A stretch of 64,000 nucleotides of DNA, from contig NZ_CP052909.1 in assembly GCF_014295415.1 (NCBI RefSeq), positions 1,240,001 to 1,304,000 on the forward strand, written 5' to 3'. Below are positions 3,009-51,365 of the stretch, piece after piece; the stretch's first letter is position 1; each line of letters begins with the position of its first letter. Made by a program: the position numbers and the translations under genes. Below the pieces are notes generated by a model. It was not told the DNA's origin. It saw only the letters and a list, made by a program, of their open reading frames with translations, and searched no databases. The stretch comes from Constantimarinum furrinae (GTDB lineage Bacteria; Bacteroidota; Bacteroidia; Flavobacteriales; Flavobacteriaceae).

Positions 3009-5249
3009 TTACTTCTTGTAACTTCTGTAGTATTCTTCCAATAAATTGGTAAGAGCCGTCACCAGATCCTTTGTTTCCAGTAGCAAGCTGAAATACAAGG
3101 TTGTATTCTTCGGGCTGGATTCTTCGGTTCGAGTTCGTGCTATTTGCTTGTCGATCTTTTCTGAAACAAAGCGGAATAGTTCATTTTTCTTATCCAAGAT
3201 GGAACTGATTTTTTCAATTTCCCGATTCTTAAAGATACTTTCTATTTCAGTTAGAAGTGCTTCGAGCGTATTGTCTATCTCCTGAAGGTCTTTTATCTGA
3301 TTGAATCGAAGTGCTTTGTGATTATTGTTCACGTGTTTGTAACTCGCTTTGGCAATGTATTCCAAAGATTGAGTAACATCGGTGAGATATCCTAAAACAA
3401 TGATATAGAAGTTACTTCCCCGCACACTTGTTTCATCCAGATTTTTAATAAAGTAGAAGATGTGATTACGCAGTTCTTCAACTTCATCGTCCAGTTTCTT
3501 AACCCCTTTTCTACTTTTCTTAAGTCGGGAGGTATCCTGCTTGGCTAATCCCCGAAGCATATCGCTGTAGATCTTATTCGTTCTTTTTACAACACTAACG
3601 ATGGTATCTGCACTCTCTTCAATTATCCCTTGAACTGTGCTACTCGCAGCTTTTTTCAGTTTATCGGGAGCAGTTACCACGTTACTTCTCTTTTTGTGAA
3701 CCATAAAGTTACGGATCAGGAGCAGAATGGCTAATAACAGCAATACGGGAATCATTACCTGCTGATTCCAATTAATAAGGAATGCAAGGGTTCCGGCAGC
3801 AACAAAGGCACTAAACGCTGTAAAGAACCATCCTCCAATGACATTTAAAACACCGGCTACTCTGTAGACTGCACTTTCTCGCCCCCATGCTCTGTCTGCC
3901 AGGGAAGTACCCATCGCCACCATAAACGTAACATAGGTTGTAGATAGCGGTAATTTCATCGATGTTGCTATAGAGATCAAAACTCCGGCCACGGTTAAGT
4001 TTATTGATGCCCGAATCATATCGAAAGCTGGAAGCTCATAGGATTTACTCTTGGGAAGAGCTACCACGGGTTTTTCAAAACGCGAGTTCATATTTTCCAA
4101 GGTAGATTTTGGCAGAATCATGCCTAACCCGGCAGATAGTTTGCTGCTTCCTTTTACGATAGCGCGTGAAAGCATATTTGGCTTAAATTTCTCATGTCCC
4201 TCGCCTTGTCTTGAAAGTCCGATCTCGGTATCGGTAACCGTTTTAGCTTTCTTCGAAAACCATAATGTTAGGACCATGACACCACCTGCAATAAACAGTA
4301 ACATGGGTTCTGCCGGAACTTTGGTAGCAAGAATATTCATAGAGAATGCAGTAGCTGCTTCTCCCGATGCCGCCCAGGCTTCATACGAATGATAGGCTGC
4401 CATGGGTACACCAATAAAATTTACCAGGTCATTTCCGGAAAAGGCGAGCGCCAGTCCGAAGGTTCCTATTCCGATCACAAAAATGAGAATACTCTTTTTA
4501 AAGATCTTCATAAAAGCATAGGAGAATAAGGTCCAGAAAACAAAACTCCCGGCAATTAGCAGCAAAGTCTGATTCTCTAATATTCCTTGAAAATCTCCGT
4601 AATAGGGTGTTCCTTTAAGTCCCTTCAGAAAAATAAAATATCCGATAGCGGTAAGCGCAAAGCCCCCAAAGAGCGCTCCAAAATTCCTGATCTTCTTCTC
4701 ATAATGAAAGGTAAATATAAGTCTCGAAAGGTATTGGACCAGCGCACCTACCGTAAATGCAATAACAACCGATAGCAGGATTCCGGAAATAATTTCGGTG
4801 GCTTTATCGGTATTAATATAGTTTCCAAGATCTGCCCAAGATTGAGTGTCATTAGCGCTTATTTTGATCAAGGCAACCACTACCGCGGCACCCAGCAATT
4901 CAAATACTATAGAAACTGTTGTAGATGTAGGCATTCCCAAAGTATTGAAAAAGTCTAACAACAGTATATCGGTGATCATAACCGCCATGAAAATAATCAT
5001 GATCTCGTTAAAATAAAATTCACCCGGCACGAATATTCCTTTACGGGCAACTTCCATCATTCCACTGGAGAACACGGCGCCTATAAAAATTCCAAGACTT
5101 GCTATGATCATGATACTTTTAAAGGATATCGCTTTGGACCCAATGGCCGAGTTTAGAAAATTTACGGCGTCATTGCTCACTCCCACAATAAGGTCGGCAA
5201 TGGCCAGAACGGCAAGAGCAACGAGCATAAATAAATAAAAATTTTCCAT
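3009..5249 (-). CDS. inorganic phosphate transporter, PiT family, with PhoU-like C-terminal domain
   Basis: A 746-residue inner-membrane protein. The first PiT signature is present near residues 23-40 as GVSNDAVNFLNSAIGSKA and the second near the middle (SMKLPLSTTYVTFMVAMG), as expected for the inverted repeat of the Na+/H+-phosphate symporters. After the last membrane helix, about 200 C-terminal residues are charged and helical, with spacing typical of PhoU-like helical bundles (compare the DUF47/PhoU partners of PiT). So transporter and regulator appear fused, which makes this longer than plain PiT proteins of 400-530 residues. The next gene downstream of its promoter region is a phosphate-selective-type porin, fitting a phosphate uptake module. 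Confidence 0.92.
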   Translation of the reverse strand: MENFYLFMLVALAVLAIADLIVGVSNDAVNFLNSAIGSKAISFKSIMIIASLGIFIGAVFSSGMMEVARKGIFVPGEFYFNEIMIIFMAVMITDILLLDFFNTLGMPTSTTVSIVFELLGAAVVVALIKISANDTQSWADLGNYINTDKATEIISGILLSVVIAFTVGALVQYLSRLIFTFHYEKKIRNFGALFGGFALTAIGYFIFLKGLKGTPYYGDFQGILENQTLLLIAGSFVFWTLFSYAFMKIFKKSILIFVIGIGTFGLALAFSGNDLVNFIGVPMAAYHSYEAWAASGEAATAFSMNILATKVPAEPMLLFIAGGVMVLTLWFSKKAKTVTDTEIGLSRQGEGHEKFKPNMLSRAIVKGSSKLSAGLGMILPKSTLENMNSRFEKPVVALPKSKSYELPAFDMIRASINLTVAGVLISIATSMKLPLSTTYVTFMVAMGTSLADRAWGRESAVYRVAGVLNVIGGWFFTAFSAFVAAGTLAFLINWNQQVMIPVLLLLAILLLIRNFMVHKKRSNVVTAPDKLKKAASSTVQGIIEESADTIVSVVKRTNKIYSDMLRGLAKQDTSRLKKSRKGVKKLDDEVEELRNHIFYFIKNLDETSVRGSNFYIIVLGYLTDVTQSLEYIAKASYKHVNNNHKALRFNQIKDLQEIDNTLEALLTEIESIFKNREIEKISSILDKKNELFRFVSEKIDKQIARTRTEESSPKNTTLYFSLLLETKDLVTALTNLLEEYYRSYKK

Positions 5250-5327
5250 GAGTATGTTTAATTAAACTGGTGCAAATTTCTTATTAAAAAAGAGTTTATT
5301 TGTTACCAAATTGTTATGTATTTTCAG

Positions 5328-6551
5328 TTAAAAATGAAGGTCGAAACCAATTCGGAACTCAATATTATCCGGCTCTCCACCCCGAGACGTATAATTGATA
5401 TCGGTTTGAACCTTTAGTTTATGTCCAACAATATATTTTGAAGCTCCCAGTGTGTACTGCTCACTATTGTCAGATCCGGTGATTGGATCGAAACTCAAGT
5501 TGGTAAAACGGCCCGCGACCTCATAATTATTCTTGAACAAATACCCGGCTTGAAAGTTAAAAGCATTTCCTGTTAACACAACATCTCCGGTAGGATTTCC
5601 TTCGGCGTCCATGGCAGGAAGCCCGTTTTCTTCTACTGCTATAGGTGCATCAGCATCTCGATTCGCATATTCGGCCATGATAGAGAGTCCATCGTATTTA
5701 AACATAGCATCTACAAATATCGTGGTAATATCGGTTTTGTACAGTCCGGTAGAGGTAAACATATAAGACCCTAAATTGCTCCGGGTTTTTACAGCATCAT
5801 CATTATAATCGTATGTAGCGGCCAGCATAAGCTTCGGAGTTTTTTCTCTTTTCAGATCGCTCTGAACATAGTCTCCTCCTCCCTCAAATTCACCAAATGG
5901 AAGTACTTCTATCCTTCCGGTGTATTGATGTCCCCCTAGGTTCCCGGATACAATATTTCGTCCTTCCCCTTGCGATAGTGCAAATTTTTCACGGATAATA
6001 AAGCTTTCTGAAAGATTAGCGTGATGGCGAATTTGAATTCCAAGGTCACGGTCTATATTAAAGCGGCTGTTGAGTAAAGACCGGTCGATAAGCTGAAGGT
6101 TTGCTGAGGATACCACGCGTTCTACGTTTCCGGGAAGTTTAGTTTGCCCGGCCCATAGTTCGAAATTCTCATAAAAATTCCACATAATAACAGCGTCGAG
6201 AATATATCTGGGAGCATTGCCTGTAAATTGATTTGCTCCCGAAATATCACGGTTAGACAAACCAAGTTCAATTTTGTACTTCAACTTTGGTGAATAAGCA
6301 AAACCGTCAAATTTTAATCGGGCTCTTCTTATAAGAAAGTTTTGTTCGGGCTTACCATATGAATCCCCGTCGTGATCCCATTGAGACATTGCTCTAAACT
6401 GAATACGAGGCGCAAATTTAACGCTCCATGAGCTGTCTTTAGCGACAAGATTAAGCATTCCCTTGCCAAACTTGGTTTCTGTAATTTCTTGTGAATTGGC
6501 AGAAATGCATACGCATAACATAGCCACAAGAGTGAGGTAATGACATTTCAT
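5328..6551 (-). CDS. phosphate-selective porin O/P family protein
   Basis: A 407-residue outer membrane beta-barrel with an N-terminal signal peptide (cleavage near Asn-Ser-Gln at about 20). The pattern of alternating strands ending in a C-terminal aromatic (final residues DLHF) is typical of porins. The early motif with RIQFRAMSQWD and the later RRARLKFDGF block match the OprO/OprP porin family. It sits 78 nt upstream of the PiT gene on the same strand, so outer membrane entry and inner membrane uptake of phosphate may be co-expressed. Family membership does not prove phosphate selectivity. Confidence 0.85.
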   Translation of the reverse strand: MKCHYLTLVAMLCVCISANSQEITETKFGKGMLNLVAKDSSWSVKFAPRIQFRAMSQWDHDGDSYGKPEQNFLIRRARLKFDGFAYSPKLKYKIELGLSNRDISGANQFTGNAPRYILDAVIMWNFYENFELWAGQTKLPGNVERVVSSANLQLIDRSLLNSRFNIDRDLGIQIRHHANLSESFIIREKFALSQGEGRNIVSGNLGGHQYTGRIEVLPFGEFEGGGDYVQSDLKREKTPKLMLAATYDYNDDAVKTRSNLGSYMFTSTGLYKTDITTIFVDAMFKYDGLSIMAEYANRDADAPIAVEENGLPAMDAEGNPTGDVVLTGNAFNFQAGYLFKNNYEVAGRFTNLSFDPITGSDNSEQYTLGASKYIVGHKLKVQTDINYTSRGGEPDNIEFRIGFDLHF

Positions 6552-6693
6552 TTAATATCGATTCTAGTTTTTGTCGTTGCAAAGAACCGATTTCTATGTT
6601 AAGTTAATGTTATGCCATCGTAAAGAAACCGAGATAGGCAGTAATTTGAGGCACTTTAACAAGTCTTTATTATCGTAATTGTTATTTTGTTTA

Positions 6694-6701
6694 TATTTTT
6701 G
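6694..6701 (+). promoter_or_regulatory. -7 promoter element before the small membrane protein
   Basis: TATTTTTG matches the Bacteroidota -7 element TAnnTTTG. No good -33 TTG is seen at normal spacing. Its position argues that the TTG codon at 6687 lies upstream of transcription and that the real start is the TTG at 6735. Confidence 0.35.
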
Positions 6702-6734
6702 GCCTTTGTTAAATCAAATTGTCTCTGTATAAGT

Positions 6735-7034
6735 TTGAAATTCCTACCAAAAATATTCTTGTCATTTTTTCTCAGCCTTACCCTATTGGCACCGGTGATC
6801 ATAAATGTAATTACAATGGATCCGGATGCAATAGTAGTAACCAATATTCTAGAAGAAGAGAATAAAAATACACTACAGTTCGATGTGGATGAGAAAAAGG
6901 TAGTGCTGAATCTTTATAAATGGTTTCAGGATTTTCAATATACTTTGAAAGGCAAGAATAACCCTCATTATCGGGAAGCCTTCAGTAGCTATACCGTCAC
7001 AATTCACCTACCCCCTCCTGAATTTATAGGCTAA
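6735..7034 (+). CDS. small membrane-anchored hypothetical protein
   Basis: A 99-residue protein beginning with one strongly hydrophobic segment after Lys-Phe-Leu-Pro-Lys (a signal anchor or uncleaved signal). A soluble, probably periplasmic tail follows that ends in a Pro-rich HLPPPEF stretch. I chose the TTG at 6735 because it places two Lys residues directly before the hydrophobic core. A TTG at 6687 gives a longer form and the ATG at 6816 would remove the membrane segment. The gene precedes the SulP transporter on the same strand by 72 nt. No family is recognised and function is unknown. Confidence 0.55.
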   Translation: MKFLPKIFLSFFLSLTLLAPVIINVITMDPDAIVVTNILEEENKNTLQFDVDEKKVVLNLYKWFQDFQYTLKGKNNPHYREAFSSYTVTIHLPPPEFIG

Positions 7035-7106
7035 TATATTTTCAACGTTTTGTTTTAACTTGTTCAGTCTGAATTGTTATAGATTGAACCTATTTTATTA
7101 GCTATA

Positions 7107-8948
7107 ATGAATAAATTATTTGATTTTAAACATTTTAAAGGAGACTTGTTTGGTGGAATTACTGCCGGAATCGTTGCTTTACCTCTTGCATTAGCTTTTG
7201 GTGTAAGTTCTGGTCTGGGTCCAAGTGCGGGTCTTTATGGTGCTATTTTCGTTAGCTTTTTTGCAGCTTTATTTGGTGGAACCAATACACAAATTTCGGG
7301 ACCAACTGCACCAATGACAGCAGTGAGTATGGTAGTAATTGCGGGGATCATCGCCGTGAATGACGGAGATGTGAACAAAGCGCTACCTGCAATTCTTACT
7401 GTGTTCCTCTTGGCGGGACTAATGCAGATTGGACTGGGGGTGCTAGGTATAGGGAAGTATATAAAGTATATACCCTATCCGGTAGTTTCAGGATTTATGA
7501 CTGCAATAGGTATCATTATCTTGGTTACCCAGATTCTTCCGGCTGTTGGATATTATCCAAAGGAGGATGCCGAATTTGTAGATCAGTTTAAACCACTCGC
7601 GGAAGAGTTAATTTTAGAGAATATCCTCAGAGAAGAAGCAGGAGAAGGCATATTGGTTTTGGAAGATTTTGAAGAGACCATAAAACGTTCTGAAACCATT
7701 TCTCAAGCAGATATTTTAAAAGAGTCACAGACACTTGCAGCAGCGAACGCTTCCGGTGTAATTGGTTCGATTAAAATGCTTCCTAAAGCGCTAAATAATA
7801 TTAATTGGCTGGAATTGCTATTGGCATTAGGAACCATATTAATTATTTATGGTTTTAAACGCATTACCACAGCGGTACCCAGTACCTTGGTTGCGTTGTT
7901 GGTCATGTCGGGGATAGCATATGGATTTAGCCTTGATTATCGTCCCATTGAGCAGATTCCAAGTGGATTGCCCCTTCCTAATCTGGAAATATTTACCGGA
8001 TTCAGCCTTGCCAGTTTAACCCCTTATATTTTCACGGCACTTACACTTGCCTTACTGGGAGCAATAGATTCATTGCTCACTTCGGTGGTGGCCGATAATA
8101 TGACTAAGACCAAGCATAAACCAAACAAGGAATTAGTGGGTCAAGGTATCGGAAATTCTATAGGTGCTATTTTTGGCGGAATTCCGGGAGCGGGAGCGAC
8201 CATACGAACGGTGGTAAATATAAAATCGGGAGGAAAAACTCGTCTTTCGGGTATGATGGCCGGGGTTTTATTGCTGGTGATCCTTTTGTCACTAGGTCCG
8301 GTAGCTTCACAAATTCCCGCAGCAGTACTAGCTGGAATCCTTATCACGGTAGGAATTGGAGTTATGGATTATAAAGGGCTAAAAGCAATTCCTAATATGC
8401 CCAAAGCCGAAGTTATTATTATGATAATTGTATTGGTACTGTCTTCGGTATGGAATCTCGTGTATGCAGTAGGCATTGGTTTAGTGATTGCTTCACTTAT
8501 GTTTATGAAGAAAATGGGCGACCTTACTGCCGAGCGGTCCGATGTAAAACCATTATTAAAGGAACAGGCCTGGGACGATGAACATAATTTTCCTGAAGCT
8601 TTAAAAGAAGAAGTCTTTATAAAGCACATTAAGGGCCCGTTGTTTTTTGGTTCTACTAGTGATTTTCAGCAACTAGCTCAGCAGGTTCCGAACACGGCAA
8701 AAACTGTGGTCATACGTTTAGATCGTATGCAATATATGGATCAATCCGGGTTATATGCCATGGAAGATGTTCTTGTAGATTTGTCCCGTAGAAATATAAC
8801 GGTGTTGTTTGTGGATGTACAAACCCAGCCGCGATACATGATGGAACGAATTGATATTATACCCGATCTTGTTTCTGAAGACCGGATTTTTAAAACATTC
8901 AAAGAATGTTTAAAGTGGATTAATGAAAATGTAAAAGATAAATATTAA
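7107..8948 (+). CDS. SulP-family inorganic anion transporter
   Basis: A 613-residue inner-membrane transporter. The N-terminal region carries the SulP helices (AGIVALPLALAFG and the QISGPTAPMTAV block). Residues from about 500 onward form a STAS domain with the characteristic DQSG turn. Between helices near 150 and 218 there is a soluble, Glu-rich insertion of about 65 residues that many SulP proteins lack. Its stop is 3 nt from the start of a beta-carbonic anhydrase, so the pair is translated from one message. That neighbour argues for bicarbonate as substrate, like BicA-type SulP proteins, although sulfate cannot be excluded from sequence alone. Confidence 0.93.
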   Translation: MNKLFDFKHFKGDLFGGITAGIVALPLALAFGVSSGLGPSAGLYGAIFVSFFAALFGGTNTQISGPTAPMTAVSMVVIAGIIAVNDGDVNKALPAILTVFLLAGLMQIGLGVLGIGKYIKYIPYPVVSGFMTAIGIIILVTQILPAVGYYPKEDAEFVDQFKPLAEELILENILREEAGEGILVLEDFEETIKRSETISQADILKESQTLAAANASGVIGSIKMLPKALNNINWLELLLALGTILIIYGFKRITTAVPSTLVALLVMSGIAYGFSLDYRPIEQIPSGLPLPNLEIFTGFSLASLTPYIFTALTLALLGAIDSLLTSVVADNMTKTKHKPNKELVGQGIGNSIGAIFGGIPGAGATIRTVVNIKSGGKTRLSGMMAGVLLLVILLSLGPVASQIPAAVLAGILITVGIGVMDYKGLKAIPNMPKAEVIIMIIVLVLSSVWNLVYAVGIGLVIASLMFMKKMGDLTAERSDVKPLLKEQAWDDEHNFPEALKEEVFIKHIKGPLFFGSTSDFQQLAQQVPNTAKTVVIRLDRMQYMDQSGLYAMEDVLVDLSRRNITVLFVDVQTQPRYMMERIDIIPDLVSEDRIFKTFKECLKWINENVKDKY

Positions 8949-8951
8949 GAT

Positions 8952-9578
8952 ATGAAAGCACATACAAAAGAAACGCAGGCCACTATGACCCCTCAAAAGG
9001 CGTTGCAATTTTTAAAAGAAGGGAATGAAAGATTTCAAAATAATCTAAGAGCCAACAGAAACTTGTTGCAACAAGTAAATCAAACTACCGATGGACAGTT
9101 TCCGTTTGCTACCATTTTAAGTTGTATAGACTCCAGAGTTTCTGCCGAACTGGTATTCGATCAGGGGTTAGGAGATATTTTCAGTATTCGTATTGCGGGT
9201 AACTTTGTCAATGAAGATATTTTAGGAAGTATGGAATTTGCCTGCAAGCTTGCCGGGACTAAACTACTTGTAGTATTGGGACATACCAGTTGTGGGGCAG
9301 TAAAAGGGGCTTGTGATCACGCCAGACTTGGAAACCTCACTAAGCTTATAAATAAGATTGAGCCTGCGGTAGAAGCGGTAAACGAGCCTACAGACGAAAA
9401 CCTTCGCAATTCTTCAAACCTGGATTTCGTAGATAAAGTTGCTGCAAAAAATGTGGAAATGGCTATAGATAATATCAGAAAAGAAAGCCCGATACTAAAA
9501 GAAATGGAGGAGAAAGGTGAGATTAAAATTGTGGGTGCTATGTATGATATAAGTACCGGAAGTGTTTCATTTAACTAA
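8952..9578 (+). CDS. beta-carbonic anhydrase
   Basis: A 208-residue cytoplasmic zinc enzyme that interconverts CO2 and bicarbonate. The beta-class active site is complete: Cys58-x-Asp60-x-Arg62 and His111-x2-Cys114. The zinc ligands are Cys58, His111 and Cys114; Asp60 and Arg62 form the gating pair. The length fits the family. It is co-transcribed with the SulP transporter, so it probably supplies or consumes bicarbonate moved by that protein. Confidence 0.95.
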   Translation: MKAHTKETQATMTPQKALQFLKEGNERFQNNLRANRNLLQQVNQTTDGQFPFATILSCIDSRVSAELVFDQGLGDIFSIRIAGNFVNEDILGSMEFACKLAGTKLLVVLGHTSCGAVKGACDHARLGNLTKLINKIEPAVEAVNEPTDENLRNSSNLDFVDKVAAKNVEMAIDNIRKESPILKEMEEKGEIKIVGAMYDISTGSVSFN

Positions 9579-45219: not shown

Positions 45220-45307
45220 AGAGAGGTGGCCGAGTGGTCGAAGGCGCACGCCTGGAAAGTGTGTATACGCCAAAAGCGTATCGAGGGTTCGAATCCCTTC
45301 CTCTCTG
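45220..45307 (+). tRNA. tRNA-Ser (anticodon GGA)
   Basis: An 88-nt class II tRNA. The acceptor stem pairs AGAGAGG with CCTCTCT, followed by discriminator G. The anticodon loop is CTGGAAA with anticodon GGA at 45254-45256. A long variable arm (TACGC/GCGTA) is typical of serine tRNA, and the T-arm carries TTCGAAT. The 3' CCA is not encoded. Confidence 0.97.
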
Positions 45308-45310
45308 CGA

Positions 45311-45375
45311 ATACATTTATAAGGGAGTAATTTTTACAAGCTCGCTTGATAAAAATTACGACCGAAATAAATGTA
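45311..45375. repeat. nested inverted repeat behind tRNA-Ser
   Basis: Outer arms TACATTTAT/ATAAATGTA (45312-45320, 45367-45375) enclose a second pair GTAATTTTTA/TAAAAATTAC (45327-45336, 45350-45359), which in turn encloses CAAG/CTTG. All arms are perfect. This may be a transcript end, a processing structure or the remains of a palindromic element. It is followed at once by another perfect hairpin, CAATTGC-GAA-GCAATTG. Confidence 0.65.
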
Positions 45376-45421
45376 CAATTGCGAAGCAATTGCAGCAATC
45401 TTGTATTCCCGGCATACCCTT

Positions 45422-45726
45422 CCGGGATCATCGAGCGCAGCGAGATAATCCTGAATTGTGCTAATTTGTGTTGTATGGTGTTCCGGGATCATCGAGCGCA
45501 GCGAGATAATCCTGAATTGTGCTAATTTGTGTTGTATGGTGTTTTGGGATCATCGAGCGCAGCGAGATAATCCTGAATTGTGCTAATTTGTGTTGGATGG
45601 TGTTCTGGGATCATCGAGCGCAGCGAGATAATCCTGAATTGTGCTAATTTGTGTTGTATGGTGTTCTGGGATCATCGAACACAGTGAGATAATCCTGAAT
45701 TGAAATAGTTTGTTTGTGGCTCTCCT
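45422..45726. repeat. five tandem 61-bp units with a conserved hairpin
   Basis: Units begin at 45422, 45483, 45544, 45605 and 45666. The first four are nearly identical; the fifth diverges after its first 36 nt or so. Each has a 27-nt palindromic core (GGATCATCGAGCGCAGCGAG then ATAATCC) and an AT-rich remainder. In the fifth unit one core base pair changes from G-C to A-T on both sides, which preserves pairing. There are no unique spacers between units, so this is not CRISPR. No frame through it looks protein-coding. Confidence 0.9.
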
Positions 45727-45919
45727 GTAGATTTACAAGTAGGGGTAGCATCATTTCCATATGCCAAAGTCCTTTAGAGAAACCGATTTTGGAATCCGGA
45801 AATTTTCCAGATTATACTTAGTTATATGAGACTCAACCTATTCGATCTGAACCTTCAAACCTACGTTACATACTGGGGGTCGGTGAAGTTTAACCGTTTA
45901 TCTAATCAAAAATATATAA

Positions 45920-45951
45920 TTGTAGATTAACTAATAATTTTTATATCTTTA
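45920..45951 (+). promoter_or_regulatory. promoter of the TolQ/ExbD operon
   Basis: TTG at 45920-45922 and TATCTTTA at 45944-45951, 21 nt apart. The -7 element has A in place of the final G, as in two other promoters of this window. It leaves a leader of about 30 nt. Confidence 0.5.
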
Positions 45952-45987
45952 AACCTTTAACTAAAAACAAACTTTAAGTCGATAGCA

Positions 45988-46791
45988 ATGAAAAAATTAT
46001 TTTCTATTATGGCAATTGCCGCACTTGTTTTTGCGGGATCATTTAACGCAAATGCAGCGGAAGCACAAATTATGCCTACCAGCGTACAAACTTTGGTAAA
46101 TGCAGCCACGGTAACCATTATTCAGGATGAAGAGGCTGCCTCTGCAGAAGAGCCACAAGGTTGGCATCAGAATTTAAAACAACGATTCATCGAAGGTGGT
46201 CCCGGATTTATGGGAATCGTACTTTTGTGTTTAATTCTTGGATTAGCAATTGCTATAGAGAGAATTATCTACTTAAACCTTTCTACAACGAACACTCAAA
46301 AGCTTGCTGAGAACGTTGAAGATGCATTGAATAGCGGTGGTATTGAAGCGGCCAAGGAAGTATGTAGAAACACAAAAGGACCTGTTGCGTCTATCTACTA
46401 TCAGGGTCTAGACAGAGCCGATGAGAGCATTGAAGCAGCCGAAAAAGCTGTTGTTGCTTATGGTGGTGTTCAAATGGGACAATTAGAGAAAAATGTTTCT
46501 TGGATTTCATTGTTTATTGCTCTTGCTCCTATGCTTGGTTTCATGGGAACAGTAATAGGTATGATTCTTGCATTCGATAAGATTCAGTCTGCAGGTGATA
46601 TGAACCCTTCACTTGTAGCCGGGGGTATTAAAGTTGCATTATTAACGACAGTATTTGGTTTGATCGTTGCTATTATACTGCAGATCTTTTACAATTACAT
46701 TATTGCTAAAATTGACAGTATTGTAAACAGTATGGAAGATGCTTCTATCACATTAATCGATATGCTGGTAGATTACAAAAACAAACGATAA
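45988..46791 (+). CDS. MotA/TolQ/ExbB proton channel family protein
   Basis: A 267-residue inner-membrane protein of the ExbB/TolQ type. It has an N-terminal signal-like segment (1-24), an unusually long periplasmic stretch before the first channel helix (about 77-96), and the two signature helices near the C-terminus (LFIALAPMLGFMGTVIGMI and VALLTTVFGLIVAIILQIFY). With ExbD it uses the proton gradient to drive TonB or Tol systems. It heads a four-gene operon with two ExbD genes, the usual arrangement in Bacteroidota. Confidence 0.93.
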   Translation: MKKLFSIMAIAALVFAGSFNANAAEAQIMPTSVQTLVNAATVTIIQDEEAASAEEPQGWHQNLKQRFIEGGPGFMGIVLLCLILGLAIAIERIIYLNLSTTNTQKLAENVEDALNSGGIEAAKEVCRNTKGPVASIYYQGLDRADESIEAAEKAVVAYGGVQMGQLEKNVSWISLFIALAPMLGFMGTVIGMILAFDKIQSAGDMNPSLVAGGIKVALLTTVFGLIVAIILQIFYNYIIAKIDSIVNSMEDASITLIDMLVDYKNKR

Positions 46792-51303: not shown

Positions 51304-51352
51304 GTCGGAAGTCGGAAGTCGGAAGTCGGAAGTCGGAAGTCGGAAGCCAGAA
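51304..51352. repeat. heptanucleotide microsatellite (GTCGGAA)6
   Basis: Six perfect copies of GTCGGAA (51304-51345) and one copy with two changes (51346-51352). It lies between the asnS stop and the rpoN start, on the asnS side of the terminator, so transcripts of asnS run through it. Confidence 0.95.
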
Positions 51353-51365
51353 GTTGATTGGTAAA

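Follow-up and report, generated by a model that had tools for sequence, protein, structure and literature searches.

A 61-bp hairpin array behind tRNA-Ser(GGA) of Constantimarinum furrinae, apparently the multiplied end of a small non-coding element at tRNA and tmRNA 3' ends

Gene content and tandem array of the tRNA-Ser(GGA) locus

The window analysed here is a stretch of 64,000 nucleotides of Constantimarinum furrinae, bases 1240001-1304000 of a 2.99-Mb one-contig genome. Between a tRNA-Ser(GGA) gene and a gene that we take from its sequence to be ExbB/MotA-like, it carries a folded block followed by a tandem array (Table 1). The initial annotation had described five units of 61 bp, and these are present with a spacing of exactly 61 bases between core starts; TRF on the window reports one array here, with 96% match. 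Cores 1 to 4 are identical and the fifth reads GGATCATCGAACACAGTGAGATAATCC, with the exchange noticed earlier, G to A at core position 11 and C to T at position 17, by which the pairing is kept; loop position 13 has changed too. The 34 nt between the cores are also repeated, unlike the unique spacers of a CRISPR.

Table 1. Features of the tRNA-Ser(GGA) locus, in window coordinates.
Feature	Position	Strand	Basis
tRNA-Ser(GGA), host gene of the element	45220..45308	+	ARAGORN; Rfam RF00005, 56 bits
Folded block between tRNA and array; outer inverted repeat GAATACA (45309-45315) / TGTATTC (45402-45408)	45309..45408	+	letters checked; fold
P1 stem TACATTTAT (45312-45320) / ATAAATGTA (45367-45375), encloses P3	45312..45375	+	minimum-energy fold; letters checked
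P3 long hairpin, apical CAAG-CTCG-CTTG, motif common to elements behind other tRNAs	45327..45359	+	fold, comparison
P4 hairpin CAATTGC-GAA-GCAATTG, GNA triloop	45376..45392	+	fold, comparison
Tandem array, period 61, 4.6 copies	45420..45702	+	TRF
Core hairpin 1, GGATcATC-GA-GC-GNA-GC-GA-GATaATCC	45425..45451	+	pattern search, letters checked
Core hairpin 2	45486..45512	+	pattern search, letters checked
Core hairpin 3	45547..45573	+	pattern search, letters checked
Core hairpin 4	45608..45634	+	pattern search, letters checked
Core hairpin 5, worn, G-C to A-T at core positions 11/17	45669..45695	+	letters checked
ExbB/MotA-like gene (presumed from its sequence), marks the far side of the insert	45988..46791	+	ORF; distance in relatives

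The ExbB-like gene lies directly 3' of tRNA-Ser in many relatives. From the tRNA tail to its ATG there are 694 nt in C. furrinae, against 85-102 nt in 19 of the 29 relatives for which the locus was returned; in eight more it is longer (135-755 nt), 27 distances having been determined in all. The relative G027 has neither block nor array behind this tRNA, and alignment to it shows the flank resuming before the exbB-like start (score 239; shuffled maximum 60), with about 570 extra bases in C. furrinae, made up of the block, the array and about 180 more. The window's own locus shows an insertion only, without a copy of the tRNA tail (17 nt, at most three substitutions), and 45309-45987 holds no integrase gene, the sole ORF of at least 80 aa that reaches in being an antisense frame of 89 aa that spans the tRNA. 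A BLAST search of the own genome with the complete array matched the array alone. At one mismatch or fewer, GAGCGNAGCGAGA occurs at nine places in this genome, four of them in the array, compared with six for the reversed pattern. Elsewhere in the window, a seven-base repeat (GTCGGAA, 7.3 copies, 51304-51354) stands upstream of a minus-strand gene that reads like sigma-54.

Core hairpin in other genomes

The core is a short imperfect palindrome of 27 nt with a C.A and a tandem G.A mismatch. A single 61-nt unit folds no better than dinucleotide shuffles (z -0.18 as RNA, +0.50 as DNA), so that support for the hairpin comes from the comparison between species; core hairpin 1 is not formed in the minimum-energy fold of block and first core at Ser(GGA). 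With up to two mismatches the core is confined to the array in its own genome (four matches), but the exact degenerate core occurs in 38 genomic stretches of a collection of 84,980 genomes. Classified from their titles, 37 of these stretches bear Bacteroidetes names; the exception (L053), a contig labelled Euryarchaeota, has a Bacteroidetes-type element behind tRNA-Cys and is probably mis-binned.

A tRNA gene on the same strand lies 80-206 nt upstream of the exact core in 31 of the 38 stretches. Among the remaining seven, L059 is a second core on a contig whose element stands behind tRNA-Ser (L048), two follow a bare tRNA tail (L042, L046), one a partial tail (L060) and one no tail (L051), while in the last two (L063, L067) the core lies within 150 nt of the start of the stretch. 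Among 397 genomes of the family, 23 carry the core with at most two mismatches and none the reversed control pattern, and in 20 of the 22 other than C. furrinae the locus listed first follows a tRNA or tmRNA gene, the remaining two being at contig ends. The host genes comprise Ser, Pro, Tyr, Arg, Gln, Met and Cys tRNAs as well as tmRNA; elements of the Tyr type keep a spacing of 80-84 nt, and their pairing, across genera. No exact core was found in viral contigs. The initial annotation gave tRNA-Ser only as the location of the array and missed the tie of the element to tRNA genes. The array very probably belongs to a family of tRNA-linked elements.

Forty-four distinct cores were collected by a pattern allowing three mismatches, which limits the variation that can be seen among them. 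Three pairs nevertheless change on both sides: pair 7-21 is CG in 32 cores, TA in four and AT in one (TG in three, unpaired in four), pair 11-17 is GC in 33, CG in four and AT in two (GT in three, AA in two), and pair 12-16 is CG in 39 and TA in two (TG in three). The mismatches are mostly kept, the C.A in 34 cores and the tandem G.A in 39 and 43, and all four bases occur in the middle of the triloop. The recurrence of core and mismatches in many Bacteroidetes, together with these two-sided changes and those of the Tyr-type block below, supports constraint on the hairpin and the earlier suggestion of selection on structure. A G-N-A loop closed by C-G makes an unusually stable DNA hairpin, so the core fold could act as DNA or as RNA.

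A folded block between tRNA and core

At Ser(GGA), block and first core together fold below mononucleotide shuffles (z -3.8; -43.7 against -26.1, sd 3.7), and the P4 loop is identical in the corresponding block of the congeneric genomes G012 and G265. Most loci follow one plan, read by eye on minimum-energy folds in which not every stem is visible at every locus: P1, a terminator-like P2 (long type only), a long P3 with an apical CTTG-type loop, and P4, mostly with a GNA loop, followed by the partner strand of P1, a C-rich linker and the core. Measured from the end of the tRNA to that of the core, the element is about 100-280 bp long and holds no gene. Relative to mononucleotide shuffles, 44 of 46 distinct blocks have z values of -3 or lower, the exceptions being L072 (-2.4) and L064 (-1.8).

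Between loci the letters of the stems vary while the pairing stays. RNAalifold on a plain alignment of 12 Tyr-type sequences (block and core) predicts 20 pairs, 12 of which are changed on both sides. A comparison by eye of G012 with G265 at their common Ser locus finds one pair in P3 and one in P4 with both partners exchanged, and another P3 pair broken. P2 resembles, again by eye, an intrinsic terminator, and the Tyr element stands within a row of tRNA genes. As to known RNA families, only the tRNA reached the Rfam gathering score, both in the window and in ten related loci searched at E <=1; RsaA, SpF41, plastid UTRs and a miRNA scored below it and were rejected, the two SpF41 matches (E 0.4 and 0.58) overlapping the tRNA and the start of the block.

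Tandem arrays at tRNA and tmRNA ends

RF00005 finds 37 tRNAs in the own genome, and we examined the 35 distinct ones for TRF arrays with a period of at least 35 that start within 300 nt behind the tRNA. The 17 TRF rows obtained represent 13 distinct arrays, four of which are seen again from a neighbouring upstream tRNA. Such arrays stand directly behind 13 of the 35 tRNAs, namely Leu(taa), Leu(gag), Tyr, Val(gac), Phe, Arg(tct), Arg(acg), Arg(tcg), Pro(ggg), Asp, Gln, one Met and Ser(GGA), with up to nine copies and with units that are 85-99% alike within an array. A control of 364 kb, made up of the window and 15 further stretches of 20 kb each, holds only two arrays of period at least 35, that of Ser(GGA) and one abutting tmRNA, and chance is for this reason an unlikely source of the 61-bp array. 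TRF on the 3-kb loci of RNase P RNA and SRP RNA gave no such array. Directly at the tmRNA 3' end of the own genome (L152, 16215-16694), a 263-bp unit is repeated 1.8 times.

Arrays are fewer in relatives, with 2 of 35 tRNAs in G012, 0 of 35 in G027 and 1 of 20 examined in an Olivibacter genome; these differing counts indicate that the arrays are an expansion of the own lineage and that the elements are more widespread. Two 52-bp arrays of another family genome (L249, 11808-11907 and 12296-12551) lie in a 15-kb stretch without any tRNA, a counter-example to a strict tRNA rule: in some genomes long arrays also stand apart from tRNA ends. At L251 (15110-15897), two arrays lie 270 nt or more behind tRNA-Arg(tct), one of them with AGGATCACGAG...CGAGTAATCC units.

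Tail copies and filled and empty sites

At some tRNAs the element ends in a copy of the 3' tail of its own tRNA. Within each genome, the terminal 26 nt of the tRNAs are more similar to the roughly 400 nt that follow their own gene (forward strand) than the tails of other tRNAs are: the means were 15.4 against 12.5 in permutations (sd 0.44) for the own genome, 17.2 against 13.2 (0.49) for G012 and 13.9 against 12.3 (0.34) for G027, and none of 5000 permutations reached the observed mean in any of the three (32, 29 and 29 tRNAs). The reverse strand gives nothing convincing, the observed mean being reached by 195, 3939 and 3253 of the 5000 permutations. This test is better than an earlier one of the bases after the core, in which likewise none of 5000 permutations reached the observed value but which depends on L076, L077 and L097, the only ones of 46 loci with tail matches of at least five bases right after the AATCC of the first core. 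Behind tRNA-Phe of both G012 and G265, for example, the core is succeeded by a copy of the tail. The left arm of the core may, in our reading, be matched to the T-stem of its own tRNA at Met, Leu, His, Phe and Asp.

The comparison of the congeneric G012 (filled) and G265 (empty) shows exact insertion at the tRNA 3' end, with the tail as a direct repeat, at Met and Val(gac). From the tRNA end to the end of the tail copy the inserts measure 168 and 170 bp respectively, and the flank of the empty species starts, at its first base, right after the tail copy (scores 209 and 155; shuffled maxima 57 and 47). Displaced flanks were not significant at Asn (34, shuffled maximum 43), Arg(acg) (30, 43), Pro(tgg) (34, 51) and Leu(taa) (47, 49); at Leu(taa) the flank lies inside the insert. 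The terminator displaced at Val looks, by eye, like the P2 of the element itself, so that tail and terminator seem to be duplicated. L083 has a tail copy between a long-type block and the short-type block that follows it, an arrangement for which simple duplication gives no explanation.

An automatic search for displaced terminators in the own genome, G012 and G027 yielded nothing but adjacent tRNA genes and, in one case, the block that follows a neighbouring Val tRNA, and was set aside. Behind tRNA-Arg(tcg) of G012 (L177), the sequence reads like the start of a phage-type integrase, perhaps of a larger element in the same tRNA end.

Tyrosine recombinases and a resident integron-like locus

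The own genome has four tyrosine recombinases (PF00589): XerD, a XerC-like enzyme, one that we read as island type, and a solitary one. The last fits best the NCBIfam model 'tyrosine recombinase/integron integrase' with 217.8 bits (cut-off 220), and scores 194 bits as integron integrase (cut-off 265), above XerD (182) and XerC (179). Outside the window, a chromosomal integron-like locus (L245, G000:C1:1777001-1795000, at about 3900-9262) places this solitary, XerA/IntI-like recombinase beside a presumably coaD-like gene, so named from its sequence; the recombinase is followed by small ORFs and by five palindromic attC-like sites with both boxes, AACGGCTATC-like ... GATAGCCAGGnCCGTT. The tRNA cores lack these resident boxes and have GGATCACC ... 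GGTAATCC instead of AACGGCTATC ... GATAGCCAGGnCCGTT.

At E 1e-40, 249 of the 397 family genomes have a match to the XerA/IntI-like recombinase, which in draft assemblies frequently lies close to the end of a contig. With this preset threshold it occurs in 16 of 23 core-bearing genomes and 233 of 374 others (p 0.66); at 1e-100, a threshold chosen afterwards, in 11 of 23 and 78 of 374 (p 0.007, kinship uncorrected). We regard the solitary XerA/IntI-like enzyme as a candidate, no more, for the mover of the element.

Origin of the element

Taken together, the array behind tRNA-Ser(GGA) is apparently the multiplied right end of a small non-coding element sited at tRNA and tmRNA 3' ends, which we call a 'tRNA-tail element'. 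Its position, folding, conserved pairing, tail copies at other tRNAs and exact filled and empty sites at two tRNAs of congeneric species are observations; as to how such elements came to lie there, we lean, if only slightly, towards integration by site-specific recombination. Recombination would take place between the tail and T-arm sequence of the element and that of the tRNA gene, which would keep an intact end, a long-type element supplying its own terminator, and the core would form the right-hand junction. The element encodes no enzyme, and a recombinase would therefore have to act in trans. Once the element was inserted at tRNA-Ser(GGA), its tail copy would have decayed, and the hairpin-bearing end would have been tandemly duplicated, with replication slippage or unequal recombination at the hairpin as the likeliest cause. 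Several observations count against integration: the window's own locus has no tail copy, only three of 46 loci have a tail match of at least five bases right after the first core, four filled and empty comparisons show no displaced flank, no enzyme is linked to the element, and viral contigs are without the exact core. The constant spacing and pairing of the Tyr type across genera, moreover, look vertical. For the empty sites, the main alternative is loss through the direct repeats, since recombination between these would also leave a perfect empty site.

A vertically inherited, structured tRNA trailer, in which block and core would be a putative functional RNA (for processing, protection, termination or perhaps release of a small RNA) that is selected and occasionally lost by repeat recombination, seems to us unlikely on the whole, if by no means negligible. 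The two-sided changes in the Tyr-type alignment and at the Ser locus of G012 and G265, where one P3 pair is nonetheless broken, agree with it, as do the terminator-like P2 and the place of the Tyr element within a row of tRNA genes; against it stand the many relatives in which the same tRNA has no such element, as at Ser, where 19 of 29 are compact, the downstream tail copies, and the sites at Met and Val that are exactly filled in one species and empty in the other. The Tyr type in its constancy favours a functional trailer, and both readings may hold, with an old element domesticated at some tRNAs. We find it rather improbable that the loci are scars of prophages, islands or conjugative elements, that is, attachment-site remains after larger elements had left: tRNA and tmRNA ends are classic integration sites (PMC6764341 and PMC3146451) and tail direct repeats are found, but the same order of hairpins in blocks behind different tRNAs would not be expected of random remains.

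Slippage in a hairpin-prone, highly transcribed spot, with nothing beyond a neutral minisatellite, would fit the likeness of the units, the uneven number of arrays (13 here, 2 and 0 in G012 and G027) and the fold of a single unit, which does not exceed shuffles. It accounts for tandem multiplication but not for a core common to tRNAs of many Bacteroidetes, nor for tail copies, and it leaves unexplained why 364 kb lack arrays apart from tRNA and tmRNA ends; we judge it distinctly improbable. The initial annotation had held that an absence of further copies would favour a neutral minisatellite; copies of the element do exist, so this fails for the element, while the tandem multiplication may still be neutral slippage. 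A REP or BIME-type palindrome moved by a RAYT (Y1) transposase, also considered there, would suit an imperfect 27-nt palindrome in tandem units. The own genome, however, has no match to Y1_Tnp (PF01797), a search that gave matches in 5 of 14 control genomes, and the core with up to two mismatches is confined to the array without dispersed copies; as far as these searches reach, we reject this reading for the own genome and consider it hardly credible.

Comparison with known systems

The rtT repeats have an Rfam entry and consist of tandem units with a tRNA 3' end. Like those of the E. coli tyrT operon (Bosl and Kersten 1991, as cited in PMC2965389), the arrays described here are tandem repeats directly behind a tRNA, as 13 of the 35 tRNAs show, and some of the units in relatives terminate with a tRNA 3'-end copy, which is lacking from the units at Ser(GGA). 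They differ in having no Rfam match, in lying behind many tRNAs rather than in one operon, in the recurrent P1-P4 and core, and in belonging to Bacteroidetes.

Islands and phages are likewise found at these gene ends. The 10K island of Riemerella in tRNA-Arg has a 53-bp direct repeat (PMC6764341), which in our reading looks like tail plus terminator, and islands of Dehalococcoides are integrated at the ends of ssrA, the tmRNA gene (PMC3146451). The elements share with such islands the exact insertion at the gene end, the tail direct repeat (Met and Val of G012), an intact gene and the use of both tRNA and tmRNA; they differ in their small size and lack of genes, in being folded and in being often tandemly multiplied. 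With REP/BIME sequences and their RAYTs (PMC3733652), they have short imperfect palindromes, sometimes in tandem, in common, whereas they are undispersed, tied to tRNA ends and without a RAYT match. Integron attC arrays are also arrays of folded palindromic sites, and the own genome has both a XerA/IntI-like recombinase and an attC-like array of its own, but the tRNA cores are without the boxes of that array and there are no gene cassettes. A much wider reading would see a class of folded mini-elements spread throughout the phylum, which carry no gene, target the T-arm and tail of tRNA or tmRNA genes and are moved in trans by a recombinase recognising folded strands (the solitary XerA/IntI-like enzyme being one candidate), the arrays behind a third of all tRNA genes then being a tRNA-based counterpart of integron cassette arrays; it is a speculation to which we give little credence.

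The literature consulted, mostly outside subscription journals, describes no such arrays in Bacteroidetes, which is weak evidence of novelty. If the proposal is true, a small structured element that is neither gene, REP nor known RNA family colonises the space behind tRNA genes in many Bacteroidetes, where it may decide termination and trimming of host tRNAs. It would explain the clustering of long tandem arrays at tRNA ends in the own genome, and the natural filled and empty sites would allow one to ask how a gene-less piece of 170 bp integrates. Tandem repeats scored as neutral minisatellites may then mark the ends of elements.

A second hairpin type

A second type of hairpin, AAAATGTCCnnnGGACATTTT and its variants adjoining CTCGGTCC-like sequence, is found in the own genome at the tails of tRNA-Val(tac), His and Asn and at tmRNA. 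Behind Asn of G265 (L229), it ends in a long copy of the tRNA tail.
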